Of a stretch of DNA of 64,000 bases, positions 30,282-40,246 are shown in pieces. The notes below the pieces were generated by a model, which was given only the letters and a program-made list of their open reading frames with translations, was not told the origin of the DNA and searched no databases. Position numbers and translations under genes: made by a program. Each line of letters starts with the position of its first letter. Within the stretch, counting starts at the first letter, position 1. The stretch covers positions 620,001-684,000 of the forward strand of contig NZ_JAODVR010000001.1 in NCBI RefSeq assembly GCF_025399835.1. The letters are read 5' to 3'. This DNA is from Haloarchaeobius sp. HME9146. GTDB lineage: Archaea; Halobacteriota; Halobacteria; Halobacteriales; Natrialbaceae.

Positions 30282-30421
30282 AGTCGATTGCTGGTAGATA
30301 TCGGGCCGAGTCGGTTAGGGGTGTCGCATCGCGTTCGACAGGCTCTGTGAGAGGTTCACGCGGTGGGTCGGGCCGTCGTTCTCGACCGGAAGCGAAGGGG
30401 TCCGGATGGGTCGGAGAGGGG

Positions 30422-31669
30422 TCAGCGACGGCGGCCGAGCAGGGCGAGACAGGTCAGTGCGACGAGTGCGCCCAGGAGGGTGAAGCCGGGAACCTCGTCG
30501 GTCTGCGGGTTGTCGGAAGCGCTCGCCGTCTCCGGAAACGGGGTGGTCGGCCCGATAGGGGTCGGCGTGGTGTTGATGGCGGTCGTGGTGGTCGGCGTCG
30601 ATGCTGTGCTGGTCGTCGCCGTCGTGGTCGTCTCGGAGCGTGTCGTGGTGGTCACTGCGGGAACGACGAACCGTTCCTCGTGGACGGGAACCCGCGTCCC
30701 GTTCCGCTGGACCACCTGTACCTTCGCGACGACCGTCGTGTTCGGCTCGATGTGGGAGATGTCGACCGGCAGCCGATACTGGTCGACGTACCGGCTCTCG
30801 TCGGACGCCTGGGAAGTGATCGCCTCGTGCCACGGGACGACCGTCGCGGGCCAGATGGTCGGGCCGGTCTCGTTCGTTCCCGTCCCCAGCAACCGCACTC
30901 GGAACCGTTCGCCGGGGGAGACCCCTGCCATCTGCACCGTCAACTGTGCGGTGGTTCGGGTGACTGTCGATGACACGGTCTGTACGGCGAGACAGTTCGT
31001 TCTGAAGAACTGGGCTGGGGTCTCTCCGCTCGACTCCTCGAACGCGAGAGTCACGCCCCACTGGTCGGAACAGTCGATGCCGTGACTGTTGCGGATATCA
31101 GTTCCCTCGTCGATGTCGACGGTTTCGAGGTCGACGACCTGGTAGTACGTCTCGTTCTCGGGTCCGGGAACCAGCACGGTTGCTGCCGGGTCGGTCACGA
31201 CGATTCTGTCGTACATGTGGTCGGTATCCTGTGGGATGCTCTCGCCCCGGTAGAGACGCTGGACCGGGTTACTGTGGCTGGCGTAGAACGTCGCGTTGGT
31301 CTCGTTCACGAACCGGTGGAACCGGGTCGTGAGGTTCGACCCGTCGTAGCCTGCGAGGGTCGACCGGAGGCCGGGTGCCTCGAACCGGATTACGACGGTG
31401 TCGTCGACGCTCACCATGTTGTCCGTGACGAGCGTTCCGTTCTCCTCGGCACGCCGTATCGCGGCGTAGGAGTCCAGCGATTCCCGTTCGAGTGACGTCC
31501 GGAGGATGGTGACGTTGCTGGCAGTGAGCGTGCTGTTCTCCGGGTCGGCCGTCGCCGCTTCAGACCGGTCGAGCTCGACAGCAGGGGACGGCCCTGCCGA
31601 CCCGACCACTGCGACCGGGATGGCGAGGACGAGGAGGGCAGTGACGAGGAGGGCGCGGGGGACGTTCAC
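30422..31669 (-). CDS. PGF-CTERM surface glycoprotein
   Basis: 415 residues: a Sec-type signal peptide (VPRALLVTALLVLAIPVAVVGSA), a beta-rich extracellular region with many N-x-S/T sequons (about 50-330), a Thr-rich stalk (TTTTATTSTASTPTTTT, about 345-375), and the PGF-CTERM tail (PGF at 394-396, hydrophobic helix, RRR). Such tails are processed by archaeosortase A and replaced by a lipid anchor. The domain type was not recognised beyond its similarity in style to other haloarchaeal surface proteins. It is divergent from a Tat lipoprotein gene. Confidence 0.8.
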   Translation of the reverse strand: MNVPRALLVTALLVLAIPVAVVGSAGPSPAVELDRSEAATADPENSTLTASNVTILRTSLERESLDSYAAIRRAEENGTLVTDNMVSVDDTVVIRFEAPGLRSTLAGYDGSNLTTRFHRFVNETNATFYASHSNPVQRLYRGESIPQDTDHMYDRIVVTDPAATVLVPGPENETYYQVVDLETVDIDEGTDIRNSHGIDCSDQWGVTLAFEESSGETPAQFFRTNCLAVQTVSSTVTRTTAQLTVQMAGVSPGERFRVRLLGTGTNETGPTIWPATVVPWHEAITSQASDESRYVDQYRLPVDISHIEPNTTVVAKVQVVQRNGTRVPVHEERFVVPAVTTTTRSETTTTATTSTASTPTTTTAINTTPTPIGPTTPFPETASASDNPQTDEVPGFTLLGALVALTCLALLGRRR

Positions 31670-31882
31670 AGTCTGGGGTTATCGTCCACCTGTGAATTAA
31701 CTGGGCATGAATGGTCTTGGGCAGGCGTCGAAACGGGCTGCACTCGTGCGGAGGTGACGGGGTCGGGCGAGCCGAACTGGTGTCAGCACTATGGAAGAGG
31801 TGCGTCGGCCTGGTCACCTGCTGGTGAAAATAATGTGCCTGAAACGTGCGATTTATGCATCTCTCACACGAGCGACCTAGCC

Positions 31883-32473
31883 ATGGACCGGTCAAGGAGC
31901 CAACAACAACTACGGGAATCTGGTTCTCTCGGGGGAGTGGACCGGGTCTCACGACGCTCACTGTTGAGCGCCACCGTGGGTGCGGTCATCGCCACGGCAG
32001 GGTGCATGAACGGCTCGTCGACATCATCGACGACAGAATCACGCGACGAACCGACGGCGTCACTCACCACAGCGGCGCAGGGACGAACGCAGACGGAAAC
32101 GGGCGCACCAACTGCCGCCTCGACAGCCGACGCGGTACGGATATTCCGGTCCAATCTCCGGTCTGCAGAGATCGATGTCGAGTCGCTCACCTACGACGAT
32201 GCGACGAACCGCGTCGAATTATCGTACGTGAGTGCCGAGCCTGGCTCCCGGGAGACTGTCACGACCGAGGTCGGTATCATCACCGCCGAGTTCTACAATA
32301 CCATCGCCGCTGGACTCCGAGCGCAACGACTCGATTCGACGATCATCGGACCGGAAGGGACGGACCAGCTCAGGTGGTATGCCGAGCGTGAATGGTTCAC
32401 GGAGTTCCAGGATGGCAAGATATCGGAGGATGAACTGATATTGCGTGTCATCGAGACCGTCGAACAGGTTTGA
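31883..32473 (+). CDS. Tat lipoprotein of unknown function
   Basis: 196 residues from the ATG at 31883. VSRRSLLSATVGAVIATAGC gives a twin-arginine motif and lipobox, followed by a Ser/Thr-rich linker (about 45-85) and a compact domain of about 110 residues with no recognised family. TTTATGC (31852-31858) lies 24 nt upstream and supports this start over ATGs further up. The codon choice looks less GC-rich than that of its neighbours. Confidence 0.72.
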   Translation: MDRSRSQQQLRESGSLGGVDRVSRRSLLSATVGAVIATAGCMNGSSTSSTTESRDEPTASLTTAAQGRTQTETGAPTAASTADAVRIFRSNLRSAEIDVESLTYDDATNRVELSYVSAEPGSRETVTTEVGIITAEFYNTIAAGLRAQRLDSTIIGPEGTDQLRWYAEREWFTEFQDGKISEDELILRVIETVEQV

Positions 32474-32718
32474 GGTCCTTCCCGTATCGATTGAACCTGC
32501 TCCTGAGTCGCGCTGGAGATGCACACTGTTCCTGTTTCTGACTATTCGATTAGCACATCACCAATGGTGACACAATCGCGGTTGGTGGCCTGTTGGCGCG
32601 GGTTCACGGTGCCTACCGCTACGTAACCAGTACTTATAATCTCTGAAAAAAGAAGGTATATCTTGCCAATATGTTCAATGGGGCAACATTTAAGTGACAG
32701 TGGTTTAATCTGTCGGCC
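32474..32718. promoter_or_regulatory. Upstream region of the surface-assembly operon
   Basis: This is a 245-bp AT-richer region. ACATTTAAGTG (about 32686-32696) ends 22 nt before the ATG at 32719 and fits a leaderless promoter. A second TATA-like ACTTATAAT lies at about 32631-32639 and could serve a longer transcript. CACCAATGGTG (32569-32579) is a perfect palindrome that could bind a regulator. Confidence 0.5.
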
Positions 32719-35700
32719 ATGCGGACTGATGGGAAATGGGTAATTAAACTCACTGTGTCACTACTGCTTCTGGCCGTGGTGGCTGGGGCCCTGTCGGGTG
32801 GGGTTGCCGCCACGCCAGGTGACAACGTCACCACGGGTGGGGACACAGTGGACGATGAGAACAGTTCGGTCTACTCAGCGACGACAGCTGGGTCCGATAC
32901 TGATGGAGCACAGCTTATGGATAGCGACGACTCGTGTTGCGACGACCCCGAAGTCGCGGTGACGGTCGTCCCGACCGGGTCGTCGTTTTCGAGTGACGAG
33001 ACGATGACCATCTACGTGGGTGCGTACAACGACACGACGCCCGTACCCACGGCGGTCGCCAACGAGAACATCAACGTCACCGTCACGCGACCCGACGGGA
33101 CGACGACGAACTACTCGGTGACGACCGATTCGGACGGGAAAGCACAGGTCGACTACGACCTCTCGGCCGACAGCCAGAACGGCACGTACTCGGTCACCGT
33201 CTCTCGCGACGGTAGCTCCGAAACTGCGACGGTGAACCCGGACGTCGGTCCGGCAGTCACCGCTGCAGAACGGGACTACGAGGACGTCCTGACCAACGAG
33301 ACGACCGACGTGACGTTCCTCGTTCGGAACGGTGGGAACGGGAGTGCTGACACTCAGCTCAACGTCACCATCACGGACCCCACTGGGAGCGTCGTCGAGA
33401 CACGGCAGGTCCGAACGGATTCGGATGGCTTCGTGAACGTCTCCGTGACGCCCTCGCAGCAGGGCCAGTACGAGGTGACCGCCAGTCTGGTCGATTCCGG
33501 GTCGAGTGCCAGCCAGACCTTCGATGCACACCAGGTCGTCCTTCGCACCACTTACGAACTCGGCCGGGGTGCCGAGAACGAGACGTTCGTCTACGGCGGA
33601 TATCTCAAGGACCAGAACGGGCTCTTGCAGAACGAACCGGTCACCGTCGAGATATACAACAGCACCACGACCGTCGAGAACATCAGCACGACCACCGGGA
33701 GCAACGGGTTCTTCCTCGTCGAATCCGAGATCAACAGTTCCGACTGGTACGACGTCGATGTCACGGTCAACGGGACCACCATCCGGGACAGTATCGACGT
33801 CGAAGACCCGTACCCCGGTAGTAGCGGCGGTGGTGGCAGCGCCGATGTCACGATCACTGCATCGCCCCGGGACTACGACGTCGCACCGGGGTCGAACGCG
33901 ACGTTCGACATCGAAGCCACGGAGAACGGCTCTGCCATCGCCAACGAGCAGGTGCCGGTGTTCGTCCGGCTCGACTACGACGGCGCACCGCTGCTGTCGA
34001 CGACCGTTACGACCGACGAGAACGGTGCCGCAGTCGTCGACGTCCCGATTCCGGCAGGGATCGCCGGTGAGGCCGACATCGATGGCGAAGTCGCCATCAC
34101 GCACAACAACACGACTGCGACCGACAGCCTGTACGGCGACATACAGAAGTACGACTTCAACTTCGACTTCGATTACAGTGCGCAGGTCGGGTCGACGGCG
34201 ACCTTCGGCGTTGACGTGACTGCTATCGACGGCACCAGTAGTGTCGAGAACCTGCCGATCCAGTACAACGCACTCTACGACGGCAACGGGTTCGAGTCCT
34301 ACGCCACGGGGCAACTGGTCACCAACCAGACCGGGAGTGCCACGGAGGCGGTGTACGTTCCCCGTACTCTGGAGCCGTACCGTGCCGTCGTCCCCTTCTC
34401 TCAGAACGAGAACGCGAGAGACGCGAGTCTCTACTACGTGAACATGTTCGAGTTCCCGGGGACGCTGGCGATCGAAGGCGTGTCCGAGGACCAATACGGC
34501 AATCCCGTCGTGAAGCCGGGCGAGCAGATGACGCTCAACTTCACGACGCCCAATGGGTCGGCTGCCTCGGGTATCGCGTTCACCGATATCGAACACAACA
34601 GCTCCGAGAGCTACGTCGACGTGTCGCTCGGGACCGACATCAGTACCGGCTCGGACGCGACCCTGACGATTCCGGAGTACGCGGCCGATGACTCCTACGT
34701 CAGTGTGACGGTCTGGACCGCGGATTCACAGGGCCGGTTCTACACCGACGAAGTCTACTTCGAGATCAACTCGTCGGCGGACGACGGGCCGATCGACGCC
34801 TCCCTCACGTCGTCGACGGACACCGTCGAAGCCGGGAACAGCTTCACCCTGGACGCGACAGCCAACCAGTCCGTCCAGGAGTACCGCTGGGACTTCGACA
34901 GCGATGGGGCGGTCGACCGGACCACGACGAGTTCGACGGTCTCCATCGTGGCCGATACCCTCGGTGACAACACGATCACGGTCACGGCGGTCGGCACCGA
35001 CGGCGACACCGCCTCGGCGACGACGCAGGTCACCGTGACCGACACGACGGCACCGACCGTCGCCCTGACCGGGCCGGAGACGGTCGTCGTCGGCGAATCC
35101 GTGGCGTTCAACGCGAGCAACAGCACGGACAACAGCGACATCGACTCCTACGCCTGGGAGGTCACGAACGACACCGGGACGGTCACCACGCAGACGACCA
35201 ACACGAGCACCACCTCGCTCTCGTTCCCCGCGACCGGGGACTACACGGTCTCGATGACGGCGACCGACCTGGCCGGGAACACGAACACGACGACCCAGCA
35301 GGTCACGGTCGTCGCCGGTGCGAACCTCGAGACGACGGTCACCGTCACCGATGCCCAGTACACGGAGAACGTGACGGCGACCATCACGGTGACCAACACC
35401 GGCAACGAACAGGTCACCGCTCCGTTCACGATCGCCTACGATTACACGGGTAGCCAGCACGCGAGCGGAACCACCGCCAGTGCGGCTGGCAACCTCTCCA
35501 TCGACACGACCATCGCGGGTAACAGCTCGATTCAGCGGACGGTCAACATCACCGACTGGGTCCGGCAGAACCGCATCACCGGCGACGTCGTCGTCACTGC
35601 GAACGCAGACCCCGACGACAACGTCTCCGAAGCACGGACCGAAGACAACGTCGACACCGGCGAGTTGACCATCACCTACGCCGACCTGGAGACGTCGGTC

Positions 35701-37680
35701 AGCAGTCCCACGGCGGCGACCAACGCCTCCGAGACCCCGATTCGCGCGTACGTCGGGAACAACGGGACCGCGAACAGCACGGCGACGAGCGTGAACATCA
35801 CGGTCACGGACAGTAGCGGGACGGTCGTGGTGACCCAGACCGCACCGGTCGAGGCACTCACGACGACCGAACAGAACCTGACCCGCCTCACGCCCACGCT
35901 GGAGGCCGGTACCTACACCGTGACCGCCGCGGTCGACGACGCCGACTTCCCGGCCGGGAACGTCTCCACGACGACGATAACCGTCGAGGAGTACAACCTG
36001 ACCGCCGAGCGCGTGAACACGCCCTCGGAGCTCGAGGTCGGACAGGGAACGACCGTCGCGTTCGCCTTCCAGCCGAACGACGACGCCCCGGTGAACGCGA
36101 CGCTCTCGCTCGACGGTTCGGGACTCGCGTTCCAGAACAGTCAGAACGACAGCGTCTCGACGGTCATCACGCCGGACCCGAACCAGCCGAACGTCGTCAC
36201 CTACGACCTGGAGGCGGTCAACACGACCACCACGCCGACGACGCTGAACTTCGCGGTCACCGAGACCAACGGGTCCGATTCCGCGAGCCTGACCGCGTCG
36301 ACGAACGTGACGGTCGTCACCAGGACGGTGACGAACTCCACGGCTATCGTCCACGATAGCGCGCAGGAGACCGCGACCTTCGACGTCCACGACAGCGGCG
36401 TGACCGAGTCGCACAACGTCAGTATCAGCGTCCAGGCCGGTGCCAACGGCCGGACGCTGCAGGGACTCGAGTACCTGGTCCAGTACCCGTACGGCTGCGT
36501 CGAGCAGACCACCTCGGCGTTCCTCGGTGCACTCAACACCGACCAGTACTACCGTGACCGGCCGGACTCGGAGATCGACCAGAGCCAGCAGGAAGAAATC
36601 AACGGCTCGATCGCCGAGGGCATCGCCCGACTCAACGAGAGTGGCATCCGTGCCCAGCAGGACGACGGGTCCTGGAACATGTGGGGCAACGAAGACGTCG
36701 AGGGTGACACGTTCTACAGCGTCTACGCGCTGTACGGCACCTCCGAGGTCGCCAACGACCCGATATACGGGCCGAAGAACGACGACTCGCTCGATGGGGT
36801 CGACTTCGACCAGGCGGTCGTCTGGCTGAACGACGAGGACCAGAACGCCGACGGCTCGTTCAGCGCCTACTCCTACATCGAGGACGAGGAGGCGATGACC
36901 GGGTTCACCATCGTCGCGGTGAACAAGACCGCACAGACCGAGCGCGTGGACGCCGGTACCCACGCCAACATCACCGAACTGCAGGGTGAAGGCGTGGACT
37001 ACCTGCTCGACGCGCAGAACGAGACGTCCGGTGCGTGGAACAACGGGAACGCGCGCTCGACGGCGCTGGCCGTCCACGGGCTGCAGGTCGCCCTCGACGC
37101 GGGGGCTGCCGCGGACGCGGAGGCCAACGCCAGCGAGATCCAGGCTGCTATCGACGACGGTCGCGAGTGGCTGGTCGCGAACCAGAACGGCGACGGCTCG
37201 TGGGACCCGTACCACGACTCGAGCTACTGGAACGAAGCGGGCGACACCAGCGTGACGACCGCGTACGCGCTGCTGGCTCTCGACGAGACCGGCATGCAGG
37301 CGACCAACCAGACCATCGTCAACGGGACCGACTACCTGACGGCGGTCTACGAACGGGATGGCTCGTGGGGGTACCCCCGCGCGACCGCCATCTCCATCGA
37401 GGCGCTCGACCAGCTCACCGGAGCCAAGAGCAGCGGGACGATGACCGTCACCCTCGACGGTGCGAACGGCACCGTCACGAAGACGGTCACGGTCAACGAG
37501 ACGACCCCGCGGGTGACGGTCTCCCTGACCGACTCCGAACTCCAGACGCTCCGGGCAGCCGGGAACGGAACGACCACGGTGACGGTGACGGTGTCCGACG
37601 ACGGTGACTCCGGCACGATCATCGTCGGTATCGAGAGCACGCAGGAGATCGTCGACGAATCGGAGGGGGATGATTCATGA
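32719..37680 (+). CDS. Giant secreted protein with alpha-2-macroglobulin-type thioester domain
   Basis: 1653 residues. A Sec signal (KWVIKLTVSLLLLAVVAGAL) is followed by several macroglobulin-like or Ig-like beta modules (about 70-685), two PKD-like domains (about 690-862, WDFDSDG) and two CARDB-like domains (about 866-1090). A toroid-type all-helical domain (about 1245-1565) starts with YPYGCVEQTTS: Cys1260-Val-Glu-Gln1263 matches the CxEQ thioester of bacterial and animal alpha-2-macroglobulins. Repeats of the QNxDGSW type follow, and a beta domain closes it. The protein is acidic and full of N-glycosylation sequons. It has no C-terminal anchor, so it must be held by a partner. It overlaps the dockerin gene by 4 bp. 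Confidence 0.85.
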   Translation: MRTDGKWVIKLTVSLLLLAVVAGALSGGVAATPGDNVTTGGDTVDDENSSVYSATTAGSDTDGAQLMDSDDSCCDDPEVAVTVVPTGSSFSSDETMTIYVGAYNDTTPVPTAVANENINVTVTRPDGTTTNYSVTTDSDGKAQVDYDLSADSQNGTYSVTVSRDGSSETATVNPDVGPAVTAAERDYEDVLTNETTDVTFLVRNGGNGSADTQLNVTITDPTGSVVETRQVRTDSDGFVNVSVTPSQQGQYEVTASLVDSGSSASQTFDAHQVVLRTTYELGRGAENETFVYGGYLKDQNGLLQNEPVTVEIYNSTTTVENISTTTGSNGFFLVESEINSSDWYDVDVTVNGTTIRDSIDVEDPYPGSSGGGGSADVTITASPRDYDVAPGSNATFDIEATENGSAIANEQVPVFVRLDYDGAPLLSTTVTTDENGAAVVDVPIPAGIAGEADIDGEVAITHNNTTATDSLYGDIQKYDFNFDFDYSAQVGSTATFGVDVTAIDGTSSVENLPIQYNALYDGNGFESYATGQLVTNQTGSATEAVYVPRTLEPYRAVVPFSQNENARDASLYYVNMFEFPGTLAIEGVSEDQYGNPVVKPGEQMTLNFTTPNGSAASGIAFTDIEHNSSESYVDVSLGTDISTGSDATLTIPEYAADDSYVSVTVWTADSQGRFYTDEVYFEINSSADDGPIDASLTSSTDTVEAGNSFTLDATANQSVQEYRWDFDSDGAVDRTTTSSTVSIVADTLGDNTITVTAVGTDGDTASATTQVTVTDTTAPTVALTGPETVVVGESVAFNASNSTDNSDIDSYAWEVTNDTGTVTTQTTNTSTTSLSFPATGDYTVSMTATDLAGNTNTTTQQVTVVAGANLETTVTVTDAQYTENVTATITVTNTGNEQVTAPFTIAYDYTGSQHASGTTASAAGNLSIDTTIAGNSSIQRTVNITDWVRQNRITGDVVVTANADPDDNVSEARTEDNVDTGELTITYADLETSVSSPTAATNASETPIRAYVGNNGTANSTATSVNITVTDSSGTVVVTQTAPVEALTTTEQNLTRLTPTLEAGTYTVTAAVDDADFPAGNVSTTTITVEEYNLTAERVNTPSELEVGQGTTVAFAFQPNDDAPVNATLSLDGSGLAFQNSQNDSVSTVITPDPNQPNVVTYDLEAVNTTTTPTTLNFAVTETNGSDSASLTASTNVTVVTRTVTNSTAIVHDSAQETATFDVHDSGVTESHNVSISVQAGANGRTLQGLEYLVQYPYGCVEQTTSAFLGALNTDQYYRDRPDSEIDQSQQEEINGSIAEGIARLNESGIRAQQDDGSWNMWGNEDVEGDTFYSVYALYGTSEVANDPIYGPKNDDSLDGVDFDQAVVWLNDEDQNADGSFSAYSYIEDEEAMTGFTIVAVNKTAQTERVDAGTHANITELQGEGVDYLLDAQNETSGAWNNGNARSTALAVHGLQVALDAGAAADAEANASEIQAAIDDGREWLVANQNGDGSWDPYHDSSYWNEAGDTSVTTAYALLALDETGMQATNQTIVNGTDYLTAVYERDGSWGYPRATAISIEALDQLTGAKSSGTMTVTLDGANGTVTKTVTVNETTPRVTVSLTDSELQTLRAAGNGTTTVTVTVSDDGDSGTIIVGIESTQEIVDESEGDDS

Positions 37681-38966
37681 GTTCGCGTTCGATAGCAACA
37701 GTGACACTTGCGGTGCTGCTGGCTGTCAGCTTCGCCACCCCGATGGCCGGGACGGTAGCTGCCGACGACCACGCGGCACACGACGTTCGTATCGACACGA
37801 CCACGCTGACTTCCGGCACGGAGCAGATGGTCGAGATAACGGTCACCAACAACCAGTCGAGCGACATGGTCTCGCCGGTTGTCGAGATTCCGCTTCGCAA
37901 CGGGCTGTCCGTTACCGACGACCGTCGCTCGACGGACGGCGGCACCGAGTTCGTCGACGGCGTGACGGTCACGACGTCCAGCGGGACGGTGAGCCGAACG
38001 GCGTTCATCGACGACAGTTCCTTCCGCGGAACTGATGCACTCTACGTCGAGGGCGTCGTGGTGCCGGCCGGCGAGAGCCGGACCTACGCGGTTCCGCTGA
38101 CGGTCAGCGGGTCCAACGAGATCACCCTCGAAACCGACGTCCGGCCGCTGAACAACGTGGACCAGAACGTCCGCGTCTCACGCTCCATCGAGCCGGCCGT
38201 CCCGGGCACCATCGACGCCTCGTACGCAAGCGGGAGCGGCGACATCACGGTCTCCGGGAGTGCGATAGACAGCCAGACCGGCAGCGACTCCGTCGAGACG
38301 GACGTTCCGAGTGGCCAGTCCTACGACGTGTCGACGACGCTGTCGGGACTCGACGAGACGGTCACCGTCAGCGGGCTGCAGGTCGGTGAGTTCGAGACGG
38401 AGACGGTCCGCTTCGTCGACCCGTCACAGCGTGACTCGCTCTCGCCGATGGTCGTTGGCCGCACCAGCAGTCAGGCCAGCGTCGTCGACGGGAGCGTCCT
38501 CCGCTCGACGTCCGACGGGACGGCCGAGACCAGGACGACCCAGACGGTGACGTTCGACCTGGTCGCCGGCGGTGGCCAGACGGTCGTGGCTGTCGGCACG
38601 GACGCCGACCTCCCGATGGCGTCGCTCTCGTCGACGACCGGTGTCGACGACGCTCGATTCGCGACGGACGCGGCACCCGGGGTTGCCATCCTGAACACTT
38701 CTGGCGCGGTCGACACGACCGTGACCGTCCAGTTACAGGGGCGCTACCTCGGTGACGTCGATGCCGACGACACGGTCGACGGCAACGACGCGTCGTCGAT
38801 CGCGGCCGCCCTCGCGTCGAACTCGACCGATTCGCTCACCGAGTACGCCGACGTGAACGACGACGGCGAGGTCTCTGCCATCGACGCGATGCAGACCCAG
38901 CAGTACGCAGAAGGGAACAGAACGGCCGACTACTCCAACACGACTGACGAGGAGGAGGATAACTGA
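37677..38966 (+). CDS. Secreted dockerin-domain protein
   Basis: 429 residues with a Sec signal (TVTLAVLLAVSFATPMAGTVAA). The region about 35-350 is beta-rich and unassigned. Residues about 357-420 are a type I dockerin: two EF-hand-like calcium loops, GDVDADDTVDGNDAS and ADVNDDGEVSAIDA, each followed by a helix. Dockerins bind cohesins with high affinity in a calcium-dependent way. There is no membrane anchor. Its ATG overlaps the stop of the thioester-protein gene, and its stop overlaps the ATG of the cohesin gene, so the three are translationally coupled and probably made together. Confidence 0.85.
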   Translation: MSSRSIATVTLAVLLAVSFATPMAGTVAADDHAAHDVRIDTTTLTSGTEQMVEITVTNNQSSDMVSPVVEIPLRNGLSVTDDRRSTDGGTEFVDGVTVTTSSGTVSRTAFIDDSSFRGTDALYVEGVVVPAGESRTYAVPLTVSGSNEITLETDVRPLNNVDQNVRVSRSIEPAVPGTIDASYASGSGDITVSGSAIDSQTGSDSVETDVPSGQSYDVSTTLSGLDETVTVSGLQVGEFETETVRFVDPSQRDSLSPMVVGRTSSQASVVDGSVLRSTSDGTAETRTTQTVTFDLVAGGGQTVVAVGTDADLPMASLSSTTGVDDARFATDAAPGVAILNTSGAVDTTVTVQLQGRYLGDVDADDTVDGNDASSIAAALASNSTDSLTEYADVNDDGEVSAIDAMQTQQYAEGNRTADYSNTTDEEEDN

Positions 38967-40060
38967 TGACATCGAGAGAACTGCGTTCGTGGCTACAGGC
39001 CGCGCTCGTCGCCGCTGTCGTCTGTGGGATGTTCGCCGCCGCGGTAGCCGGTCCAGTCGGGGCACAGTCCTCGACAGTGGTCGCGTTCAGCTCCGACAGC
39101 ACCAGCTTCGAGGACTCGACGACGATGAAGCTGATGGCGACCAACGCACCGACGGACGACGGTATCGGTGCGTACGAACTGACCCTGACGTACGACAGCG
39201 ACGTGGTCGATGTCGACGTCTCGGGGACCGACCGCTTCGACGTGTCCACCGACACGGACGGGTCCAGTGGCGAGGTGACGATGACGGTCGTCGGGTACAC
39301 CGGGGCCACGAACGCCTCGGGAGCGAACGTGACGCTCGCGACGGTGACCGTCACGTCGAAGGTCGATAGTGCCGATACGTCGCTGTCTGTCGGCAGCATC
39401 GAGACGTTCGCGGACACCAACGGTGACCCCATCAGCCACAGCAACGACGCCAGCGTCGACCTCGGCGTCGAGAGTAGCGGTGACGGTGACAGCGGTGGTG
39501 GCGGCGGTGGCGGTGGCGGTCAGAGCGATGGCCCCGCCGGCACGGTCAAGATCAGCGACTGGTCGGTCTCGGACGAGACGGTCGCACCTGGCGAGCAGGT
39601 GACGATGACGGTCACCGTCTCGAACACCGCCGACGAGACGAAGACCATCACGCCCGCGCTCTACGTCGACGGCGAACTCATCGAGGGCAAGCGGCTGTCG
39701 GTGCTGAAGGGCACGGAGCGGACCGTGAACTTCACCTATCGGTTCGAAGAGACCGGCACGCACAGCCTGAGCCCGGACGGAACGGATTTCAAATTCGTCA
39801 CCGTCGAAGGTGCGGGCGAAACCTCGACGGCCCCGCCGTCGACGACAGAGACCCAGACGCCAACGCCGACTGAAACCGACGAGCAAGCCGAGACGACTGC
39901 CGGAACGGTGGCATCGGACGATGAATCGACGGGTTCACCAGAACCGACGGATACGACCGAATCAGGAGCGTCGAGCGGGGGTATCCCAGGGTTCACCACG
40001 ACGGCCGCGATGGTGGCACTGTTGAGTGTCGCGTTCCTGGCCCGTTCACGGATGGAGTAA
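38966..40060 (+). CDS. Cohesin-domain PGF-CTERM surface anchor protein
   Basis: 364 residues: Sec signal, a cohesin-like beta sandwich (about 36-168: VAFSSDSTSFEDSTTMKLMATNAP, IGAYELTLTYDSDVVDV, ATVTVTSK), a nine-glycine linker, and a CARDB-like domain (about 188-285). A Thr/Glu/Pro stalk and a PGF-CTERM tail (IPGF at about 340-343, helix, ARSRME) close the protein. The tail predicts archaeosortase-dependent lipid anchoring. It would display a cohesin on the cell surface for the dockerin protein encoded just upstream. Cohesin assignment rests on pattern and context, not on a profile search. Confidence 0.82.
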   Translation: MTSRELRSWLQAALVAAVVCGMFAAAVAGPVGAQSSTVVAFSSDSTSFEDSTTMKLMATNAPTDDGIGAYELTLTYDSDVVDVDVSGTDRFDVSTDTDGSSGEVTMTVVGYTGATNASGANVTLATVTVTSKVDSADTSLSVGSIETFADTNGDPISHSNDASVDLGVESSGDGDSGGGGGGGGGQSDGPAGTVKISDWSVSDETVAPGEQVTMTVTVSNTADETKTITPALYVDGELIEGKRLSVLKGTERTVNFTYRFEETGTHSLSPDGTDFKFVTVEGAGETSTAPPSTTETQTPTPTETDEQAETTAGTVASDDESTGSPEPTDTTESGASSGGIPGFTTTAAMVALLSVAFLARSRME

Positions 40061-40212
40061 CCTCCGTTCCCTCGGTTTCCTCGTTGTAACCAGCGTGGTA
40101 GCCGACACCTGTGCACGGCTCAGAGCCGGCTCGCCGGTGTCGTGCAACTGCGCACGAGTGCTCACCTGCGCGTCGCCTCGCACGCGGCGCACACACGCGC
40201 CTGAAAGGGTGT

Positions 40213-40219
40213 CTTTTTA
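40213..40219 (+). promoter_or_regulatory. TATA-like box of the PCNA gene
   Basis: TTTTTAG lies 27 nt before the ATG at 40247, so PCNA has its own promoter despite following the surface operon on the same strand. Confidence 0.5.
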
Positions 40220-40246
40220 GGGCCCGATTTCGTACCCTGACTCAAC

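Follow-up and report, generated by a model that had tools for sequence, protein, structure and literature searches.

How might an archaeon hold a complement-like thioester protein at its surface when the protein carries no membrane anchor of its own? The question is raised by an operon of Haloarchaeobius sp. HME9146 (contig NZ_JAODVR010000001.1), which lies in the 64,000-nucleotide stretch of DNA that was analysed here as a whole and that we call the window. Its three genes encode a thioester protein (P0001), a dockerin protein (P0002) and a cohesin protein (P0003). Thioester proteins form the core of animal complement and alpha-2-macroglobulin (A2M) defence and of bacterial protease traps. 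A first-pass annotation of the window had proposed that the cohesin-dockerin pair and the thioester protein form a calcium-dependent, cell-anchored complex. Our analysis leads us to think that the operon probably encodes a cell-anchored thioester system, similar to complement and A2M and assembled through a cohesin-dockerin joint, which would place a known protein family in a conserved surface assembly.

The three open reading frames (ORFs), 32719-37680, 37677-38966 and 38966-40060, overlap by 4 bp and 1 bp exactly as annotated. A hydrophobic signal segment is present at the start of P0001, P0002 and P0003. A C-terminal hydrophobic segment was seen in P0003 only, and not in P0001, in agreement with the earlier claim that the thioester protein itself has no anchor.

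P0001 is predicted to belong to the A2M/C3/TEP superfamily

The CxEQ motif annotated at Cys1260 to Gln1263 proved to be exact, in the context YPYGCVEQ. Across 24 homologs, some with as little as 24% identity, its Cys, Glu and Gln never vary, and the proteins of most Haloferax relatives (loci L017-L023; 1870-1950 aa) have no cysteine other than that of the thioester; the motif is thus not a chance occurrence. In a profile search, the region around it also aligns with bacterial A2M.

An AlphaFold model of residues 1070-1653, built from an alignment with 23 homologs (predicted local distance difference test, pLDDT, 82.3), consists of a macroglobulin-like beta domain, beta strands, an alpha/alpha toroid and further beta strands. 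The 50 best matches of this model in the PDB are, without exception, complement C3, C4 or C5, CD109, A2M, A2ML1 or TEP1 (Foldseek, best E 4e-24), and the P0001 profile runs collinear with CD109, starting ahead of the CUB domain and continuing across the thioester domain (TED). Since all of these fold matches are complement or A2M proteins and the profile aligns to CD109, P0001 is predicted to be a true member of the A2M/C3/TEP thioester superfamily. Two features of that superfamily, a CxEQ motif within an alpha/alpha-toroid TED and a CUB domain that follows a macroglobulin domain and holds the TED as an insertion, are both present in the combined model and sequence. Squalene cyclases also match the toroid, but they are excluded by the CxEQ motif, the CUB strands and the C3/A2M fold match. 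Pfam further finds one MG2 match and several immunoglobulin-like (Ig), PKD and CARDB domains in P0001, which has 59 N-glycosylation sequons in all.

A single dockerin and a single cohesin

Profile and fold searches support the dockerin and the cohesin as well as the thioester domain. P0002 contains a Dockerin_1 domain (Pfam, residues 358-407, E 8e-9) with the two F-hand calcium loops of a type I dockerin, and all calcium ligands, at loop positions 1, 3, 5, 9 and 12, are kept in both (GDVDADDTVDGNDA and ADVNDDGEVSAIDA). For the P0003 cohesin, comparison of the sequence and its profile with PDB chains gave no support, returning antibody linkers, ribosomal S11 and one non-significant cohesin (E 0.65). 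Its identity was settled by a fold search, which matched cohesins only, where the sequence search had failed: the domain, folded with nine homologs (pLDDT 71.6), has eight strands in the jelly-roll fold of cohesins, and all 30 of its 30 best PDB matches are cohesins (Foldseek probability 1.00). Together with the Pfam matches, this bears out the placement of the dockerin in the gene that starts at 37677 and of the cohesin and PGF-CTERM signal in the one that starts at 38966. Archaeosortase A processes PGF-CTERM proteins, and an archaeosortase A gene is present in the same genome (E 2.5e-90).

Whole-genome searches of Haloarchaeobius sp. HME9146 found one dockerin and one credible cohesin, both in this operon. 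Two further cohesin matches were rejected, one (C1:299220) because it overlaps a stronger CARDB match and the other (C1:3172648) because it gave no cohesin match on follow-up. In each of two genomes from the genus of Haloferax gibbonsii (G152 and G190), too, there is just a single dockerin and a single cohesin, again in this operon. With one of each module per genome, other partners within the same genome seem hardly possible for the dockerin and cohesin of these single-pair genomes.

The same parts recur in distant archaea, with the thioester protein and dockerin fused

We collected loci by homology to the thioester domain only, which gave 11 haloarchaeal loci and 15 from other classes. A search of named genomes with six peptide patterns from the single P0001 sequence had found no relative, whereas a profile search succeeded. 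The locus is present in 9 of 292 haloarchaeal genomes, or 3 of 77 genera; across the phylum, the profile search gave a thioester match in 22 genomes of 14 genera, and weak matches came from five genomes (G305, G379, G392, G404 and G410; E 1e-8 to 1e-11). In a plasmid collection the only matches were three distant Deinococcus A2M proteins. The earlier expectation that the trio would be conserved in relatives was borne out in every relative examined: thioester, dockerin and anchored-cohesin parts occur together in all 26 loci. In all 11 haloarchaeal loci these parts are three genes, and the ten loci from relatives (L014-L023) match the window in the order of the dockerin and cohesin genes and also carry a gene for a twin-arginine translocation (Tat) lipoprotein with a lipobox. 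The N-terminal halves of the thioester proteins are wholly variable between relatives, carrying PKD and MG2 domains, a PQQ propeller, a subtilase or CARDB domains.

The 15 remaining loci, 14 from outside the class Halobacteria and one from Methanogenium marinum, have a fused form. Their thioester proteins (1267-2362 aa) are extended beyond the thioester domain by a tail, at the end of which there is usually a dockerin; several of the proteins start with a cohesin. The C-terminal ~400 residues are homologous to P0002 over its full length: residues 33-419 of P0002 match the fused tail with a probability of 99.7 and an E of 2e-25 in a profile-profile comparison, and the P0002 profile detects the tail in 14 of the 15 fused-class proteins. 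At one locus (L168) the tail is present and its dockerin is apparently degenerate. The gene adjoining the fused thioester gene encodes a ~250-aa protein with a signal peptide, a cohesin-like domain, a linker and a hydrophobic segment at the C-terminus. Its homology to the P0003 cohesin has a probability of 98 and an E of 7e-14; at L165 the cohesin match is weak (E 1e-3). Downstream of the fused genes lies a further large membrane-anchored gene with cohesin-like matches.

Gene order and content are thus the same in fused and haloarchaeal loci, the haloarchaeal chain being split in two. Because the homology to the fused C-terminal tail spans the whole of P0002, the haloarchaeal dockerin gene resembles a tail that was detached from the thioester protein, and the cohesin protein resembles its membrane anchor. 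The same order of parts in distant archaea, with plug and thioester fused, suggests one conserved cell-surface machine. A thioester protein fused to a dockerin, with an anchored cohesin adjoining, speaks more strongly for a complex than does co-location by itself.

Some fused thioester proteins (L177 5938-11910, L178 6119-11992 and L174-L176) have CPEQ instead of CVEQ, and in several of these the thioester domain is preceded by a cohesin and followed by a dockerin, an arrangement in which head-to-tail linking is possible in principle. Thioester proteins of other classes that have both modules could link into surface chains. Two Asgard contigs (L067 and L129, Harpocratesius and Heimdallarchaeota) encode proteins of ~2000 aa with PYGCVEQ, like bacterial A2M.

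Subtilases are frequent neighbours

A subtilase is fused to or lies beside the thioester gene in 18 of the 26 loci. In Haloferax type B and in most fused loci it lies beside the gene and carries a dockerin, in some cases a cohesin as well; it is absent from the window locus, Haloferax type A, L173, L177 and L178. At L014 (9901-17907), a single chain of ~2624 aa joins a subtilase at the N-terminus to an A2M-type thioester domain at the C-terminus.

Cohesins also occur more widely, in 89 of 242 haloarchaeal genomes. Five cohesin loci that we scanned each consist of a two-gene unit, a subtilase-dockerin gene and a smaller neighbour, and the one neighbour that was itself scanned is an anchored cohesin. 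At L192-L198, a secreted subtilase with a C-terminal dockerin, and sometimes also a cohesin, adjoins a smaller anchored protein, whose cohesin was confirmed in L192. These units occur without a thioester gene. The haloarchaeal cohesin-dockerin joint thus appears to serve surface subtilases as well, and the thioester protein would be a second kind of cargo.

A proposed mechanism and its alternatives

In the mechanism that we propose, P0001 and P0002 would derive from one ancestral chain whose tail became separate, and P0002 would stay associated with P0001. The P0002 dockerin would bind the anchored P0003 cohesin with calcium, holding the thioester protein at the membrane. A protease cut or contact would then expose the Cys-Gln thioester, which would bond through an amide or an ester to its target: a protease that attacks or competes, a cell nearby or a surface. 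Covalent attachment to such targets, which the first-pass annotation had also suggested, may be the outcome. The subtilase found at many of the relatives' loci, fused or brought in through a dockerin of its own, could plausibly activate the system or work together with it, though it is absent in the window locus, and the Tat-lipoprotein may be an accessory or a guard.

Several observations weigh against a cell-anchored system of the complement and A2M type. The locus occurs sporadically, in 9 of 292 haloarchaeal genomes. The haloarchaeal thioester protein has neither a dockerin nor a cohesin, and its tie to P0002 rests on the gene-split argument. The Pfam TED model stays below threshold on P0001 itself; TED_complement is found in its relatives (E 1e-5 to 1e-12). 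Of an N-terminal macroglobulin ring (MG1-MG6), the sequence shows one MG2 match, and no bait region is in evidence. Finally, the histidine that tunes reactivity in C3-type proteins seems to be lacking from the haloarchaeal sequences; its position is Tyr or Ser in P0001, in a loop whose alignment is uncertain. The histidine at this position makes C3 ester-forming, and its absence from P0001 would favour amide bonds to proteins. Most fused relatives with CVEQ have a His there, ~110 residues after the Cys in a gapped alignment.

What such a system would do is a separate matter. One possible, if doubtful, role is a surface protease trap akin to A2M defence, in which foreign or stray proteases cut the anchored protein and are locked to it covalently, so that the S-layer and secreted enzymes are protected. 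The A2M fold of the P0001 model would fit, as would a PYGCVEQ motif like that of bacterial A2M-type loci, the recurrence of proteases as neighbours in relatives and a residue other than His at the C3 histidine position, as in amine-reactive A2M. However, neither a bait region nor a complete macroglobulin ring is in evidence, and wholly variable N-terminal halves are ill-suited to one conserved trap mechanism. The frequency of subtilases, several with dockerins, in or beside 18 of 26 thioester loci would fit an extracellular proteolysis complex, with subtilases held in a frame of cohesin and dockerin and a thioester protein that captures substrate protein or controls the protease; haloarchaeal pairs of subtilase-dockerin and anchored-cohesin genes without a thioester gene are consistent with this. 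Yet the window locus, Haloferax type A, L173, L177 and L178 have no subtilase, and this genome has no other dockerin with which to recruit one, and we give this role somewhat less credence than the trap.

Variable N-terminal halves would sit more easily with a covalent adhesin, whose thioester bonds sugars or proteins of cells or surfaces as in Gram-positive thioester adhesins, here with an A2M-type domain. An anchored, long protein with Ig, PKD and CARDB repeats and 59 sequons has the look of such a surface protein. A2M-family thioesters are normally shielded until cleavage, though, and one exposed constitutively would hydrolyse; moreover, no known adhesin or sugar-binding domain was found, so that we place an adhesin slightly below the proteolysis complex. 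We think it improbable, a shade more so than an adhesin, that a dedicated subtilase cleaves a C3-like protein anchored by cohesin and dockerin, whose thioester then bonds foreign cells or proteins in a complement-like conflict or recognition machine. By far the least likely is a structural surface protein with a dead thioester, of which CxEQ and toroid are remnants: the sporadic family would allow it, but Cys, Glu and Gln would hardly have stayed invariant in 24 homologs as distant as 24% identity, nor the Cys as the only cysteine in most Haloferax relatives.

Relation to known systems

A 2021 paper reported archaeal A2M/TEP homologs with CxEQ, next to VARTIG: 27 proteins in 24 genomes, Haloferax gibbonsii WP_050459478.1 among them. 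It proposed a role in conflict or immunity and noted other surface proteins, endoproteases and antimicrobial peptide transporters in the neighbourhoods (PMC8416519). P0001 resembles these homologs in being secreted, with Ig-like domains, a TED and an intact CxEQ, and one of our loci (L063) is from H. gibbonsii ATCC 33959. However, the words cohesin and dockerin do not occur in the text of that paper (0 occurrences), nor does it contain the relation between fused and split forms, the anchored cohesin, the lipoprotein or the dockerin-bearing subtilase. Genes of arCOG14565 are reported to come after A2M genes in haloarchaea. In the open-access literature we found no paper joining thioester proteins with dockerins or cohesins in archaea. 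The novelty claimed earlier for the combination therefore stands in part: the archaeal thioester homologs and their neighbourhoods had already been described, but without cohesin or dockerin.

With C3, C4, C5, CD109, A2M and insect TEP1, which supply the best 50 structural matches, P0001 shares the macroglobulin-CUB-TED-CUB layout and PYGCxEQ; the full macroglobulin ring, bait region and anaphylatoxin of C3/A2M-type proteins are not in evidence. Whereas C3, CD109, A2M and TEP1 circulate or are anchored by glycosylphosphatidylinositol, P0001 is predicted to be tethered via a separate cohesin-dockerin joint. The bacterial A2M proteins (YfhM/ECAM, Salmonella A2M) are also cell-anchored and align in the thioester motif region, but they are single lipoproteins, while the haloarchaeal anchor is a second protein, predicted to be joined by cohesin and dockerin.

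Among archaea, cohesins and dockerins have been described in Archaeoglobus and anaerobic methanotrophic archaea (ANME), and pairs have been reported to bind (cited in PMC9012536). The present modules are similarly non-cellulosomal and borne on surface proteins; PMC9012536 mentions no macroglobulin or subtilisin protein for the Archaeoglobus and ANME proteins. As in a cellulosome, a dockerin-bearing component is paired with an anchored cohesin. A cellulosome can be rejected, however, because the genome has one cohesin and no operon protein is a glycoside hydrolase; there is one cohesin and one dockerin, and the locus has neither scaffoldin nor carbohydrase.

The locus family would thus give archaeal thioester proteins a physical context, with a membrane anchor, a predicted calcium-dependent joint and a recurrent protease partner, and non-cellulosomal archaeal cohesin-dockerin pairs, long called enigmatic, would gain a specific cargo. 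Since the locus is carried by Haloferax, in which genetic work is well established, the idea of an archaeal complement-like system is open to direct test, and the predicted calcium-dependent joint can be tested with two small recombinant modules.

Extent, setting and origin of the locus

The operon had been delimited as 32719-40060. Its three genes stand, but the boundary missed a fourth conserved gene upstream, encoding the Tat-lipoprotein (~31883-32473), and because this gene is conserved alongside, it belongs to the locus, whose boundary should be widened. The lipoprotein has no Pfam family match. Its homologs adjoin the thioester gene in all 11 haloarchaeal loci, and when 292 genomes were searched, its 11 best matches (E <= 3e-59) coincided one for one with the thioester loci, the next best having an E of 5e-25. 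We rejected the lipoprotein as an exclusive marker of the locus, as its broad family is found in 177 of the 292 genomes; only the subfamily is restricted to thioester loci among the haloarchaeal genomes searched. A TATA-like CATTTAAG lies 24-31 bp upstream of the first ATG of the operon, a position that would fit a leaderless haloarchaeal transcript. Coordinates are collected in Table 1.

Table 1. Features of the thioester locus and its surroundings, in window coordinates.
Feature	Position	Strand	Details
Thioester protein P0001	32719..37680	+	1653 aa; signal peptide; no anchor
MG2 macroglobulin domain	33052..33222	+	P0001 residues 112-168; Pfam MG2, 3e-13
PKD domain	35047..35310	+	P0001 residues 777-864; Pfam PKD_4, 1e-8
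CARDB domain	35680..35943	+	P0001 residues 988-1075; Pfam CARDB, 7.5e-5, above cut-off
Alpha/alpha-toroid thioester domain	36439..37416	+	P0001 residues ~1241-1566; flanking beta strands (split CUB-like); AlphaFold, Foldseek, CD109 profile alignment
Thioester motif CVEQ	36496..36507	+	Cys1260 to Gln1263, context YPYGCVEQ
Dockerin protein P0002	37677..38966	+	429 aa; secreted; 4-bp overlap with thioester gene
Type I dockerin	38748..38897	+	Two complete calcium loops, D360-D371 and D392-D403; Pfam 8e-9; profile matches to solved dockerins
Cohesin protein P0003	38966..40060	+	364 aa; signal peptide, CARDB domain; 1-bp overlap with dockerin gene
Cohesin domain	39098..39439	+	P0003 residues 45-158; Pfam 2e-5, just above cut-off; fold match
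PGF-CTERM anchor signal	39983..40051	+	P0003 residues 340-362; Pfam 4.8e-5
Tat-signal lipoprotein	31883..32473 (about)	+	~196 aa; RRSLL...AGC lipobox; start codon uncertain
415-aa surface protein	30422-31669	-	PGF-like C-terminus (EVPGFTLLGALVALTCLALLGRRR); within inserted block

The operon, the lipoprotein gene and the gene for the 415-aa surface protein lie in a block of ~10 kb (30282-40246) between rlmE and PCNA. The block is missing in four sister species, in which rlmE and PCNA are 0.2 to 1.6 kb apart; this and the scattered distribution of the family suggest that the locus was gained by transfer. The GC fraction falls to 0.60 at 32-34 kb of the window. No homolog of the 415-aa protein was found in the other thioester loci. 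Near two thioester loci, ORFs resembling, by eye, IS200/IS605-type TnpB (L020 15234-16538 and L014 5780-7066) would fit mobility of the locus.

Multi-cohesin clusters in one haloarchaeal genus

According to PMC9012536, multi-cohesin scaffoldins were lacking in the archaea known before. In one haloarchaeal genus, clusters of ~20-30 kb (L179, L180, at G043:C1:466000-496000, and G208:C1:77854-110285) hold 14-17 cohesins. They combine subtilases that carry a dockerin and a cohesin with a multi-cohesin protein, of 1260 aa in G043 and 2089 aa in G208, and look like a protease version of the cellulosome. The G043 multi-cohesin protein ends in a PGF-like anchor.

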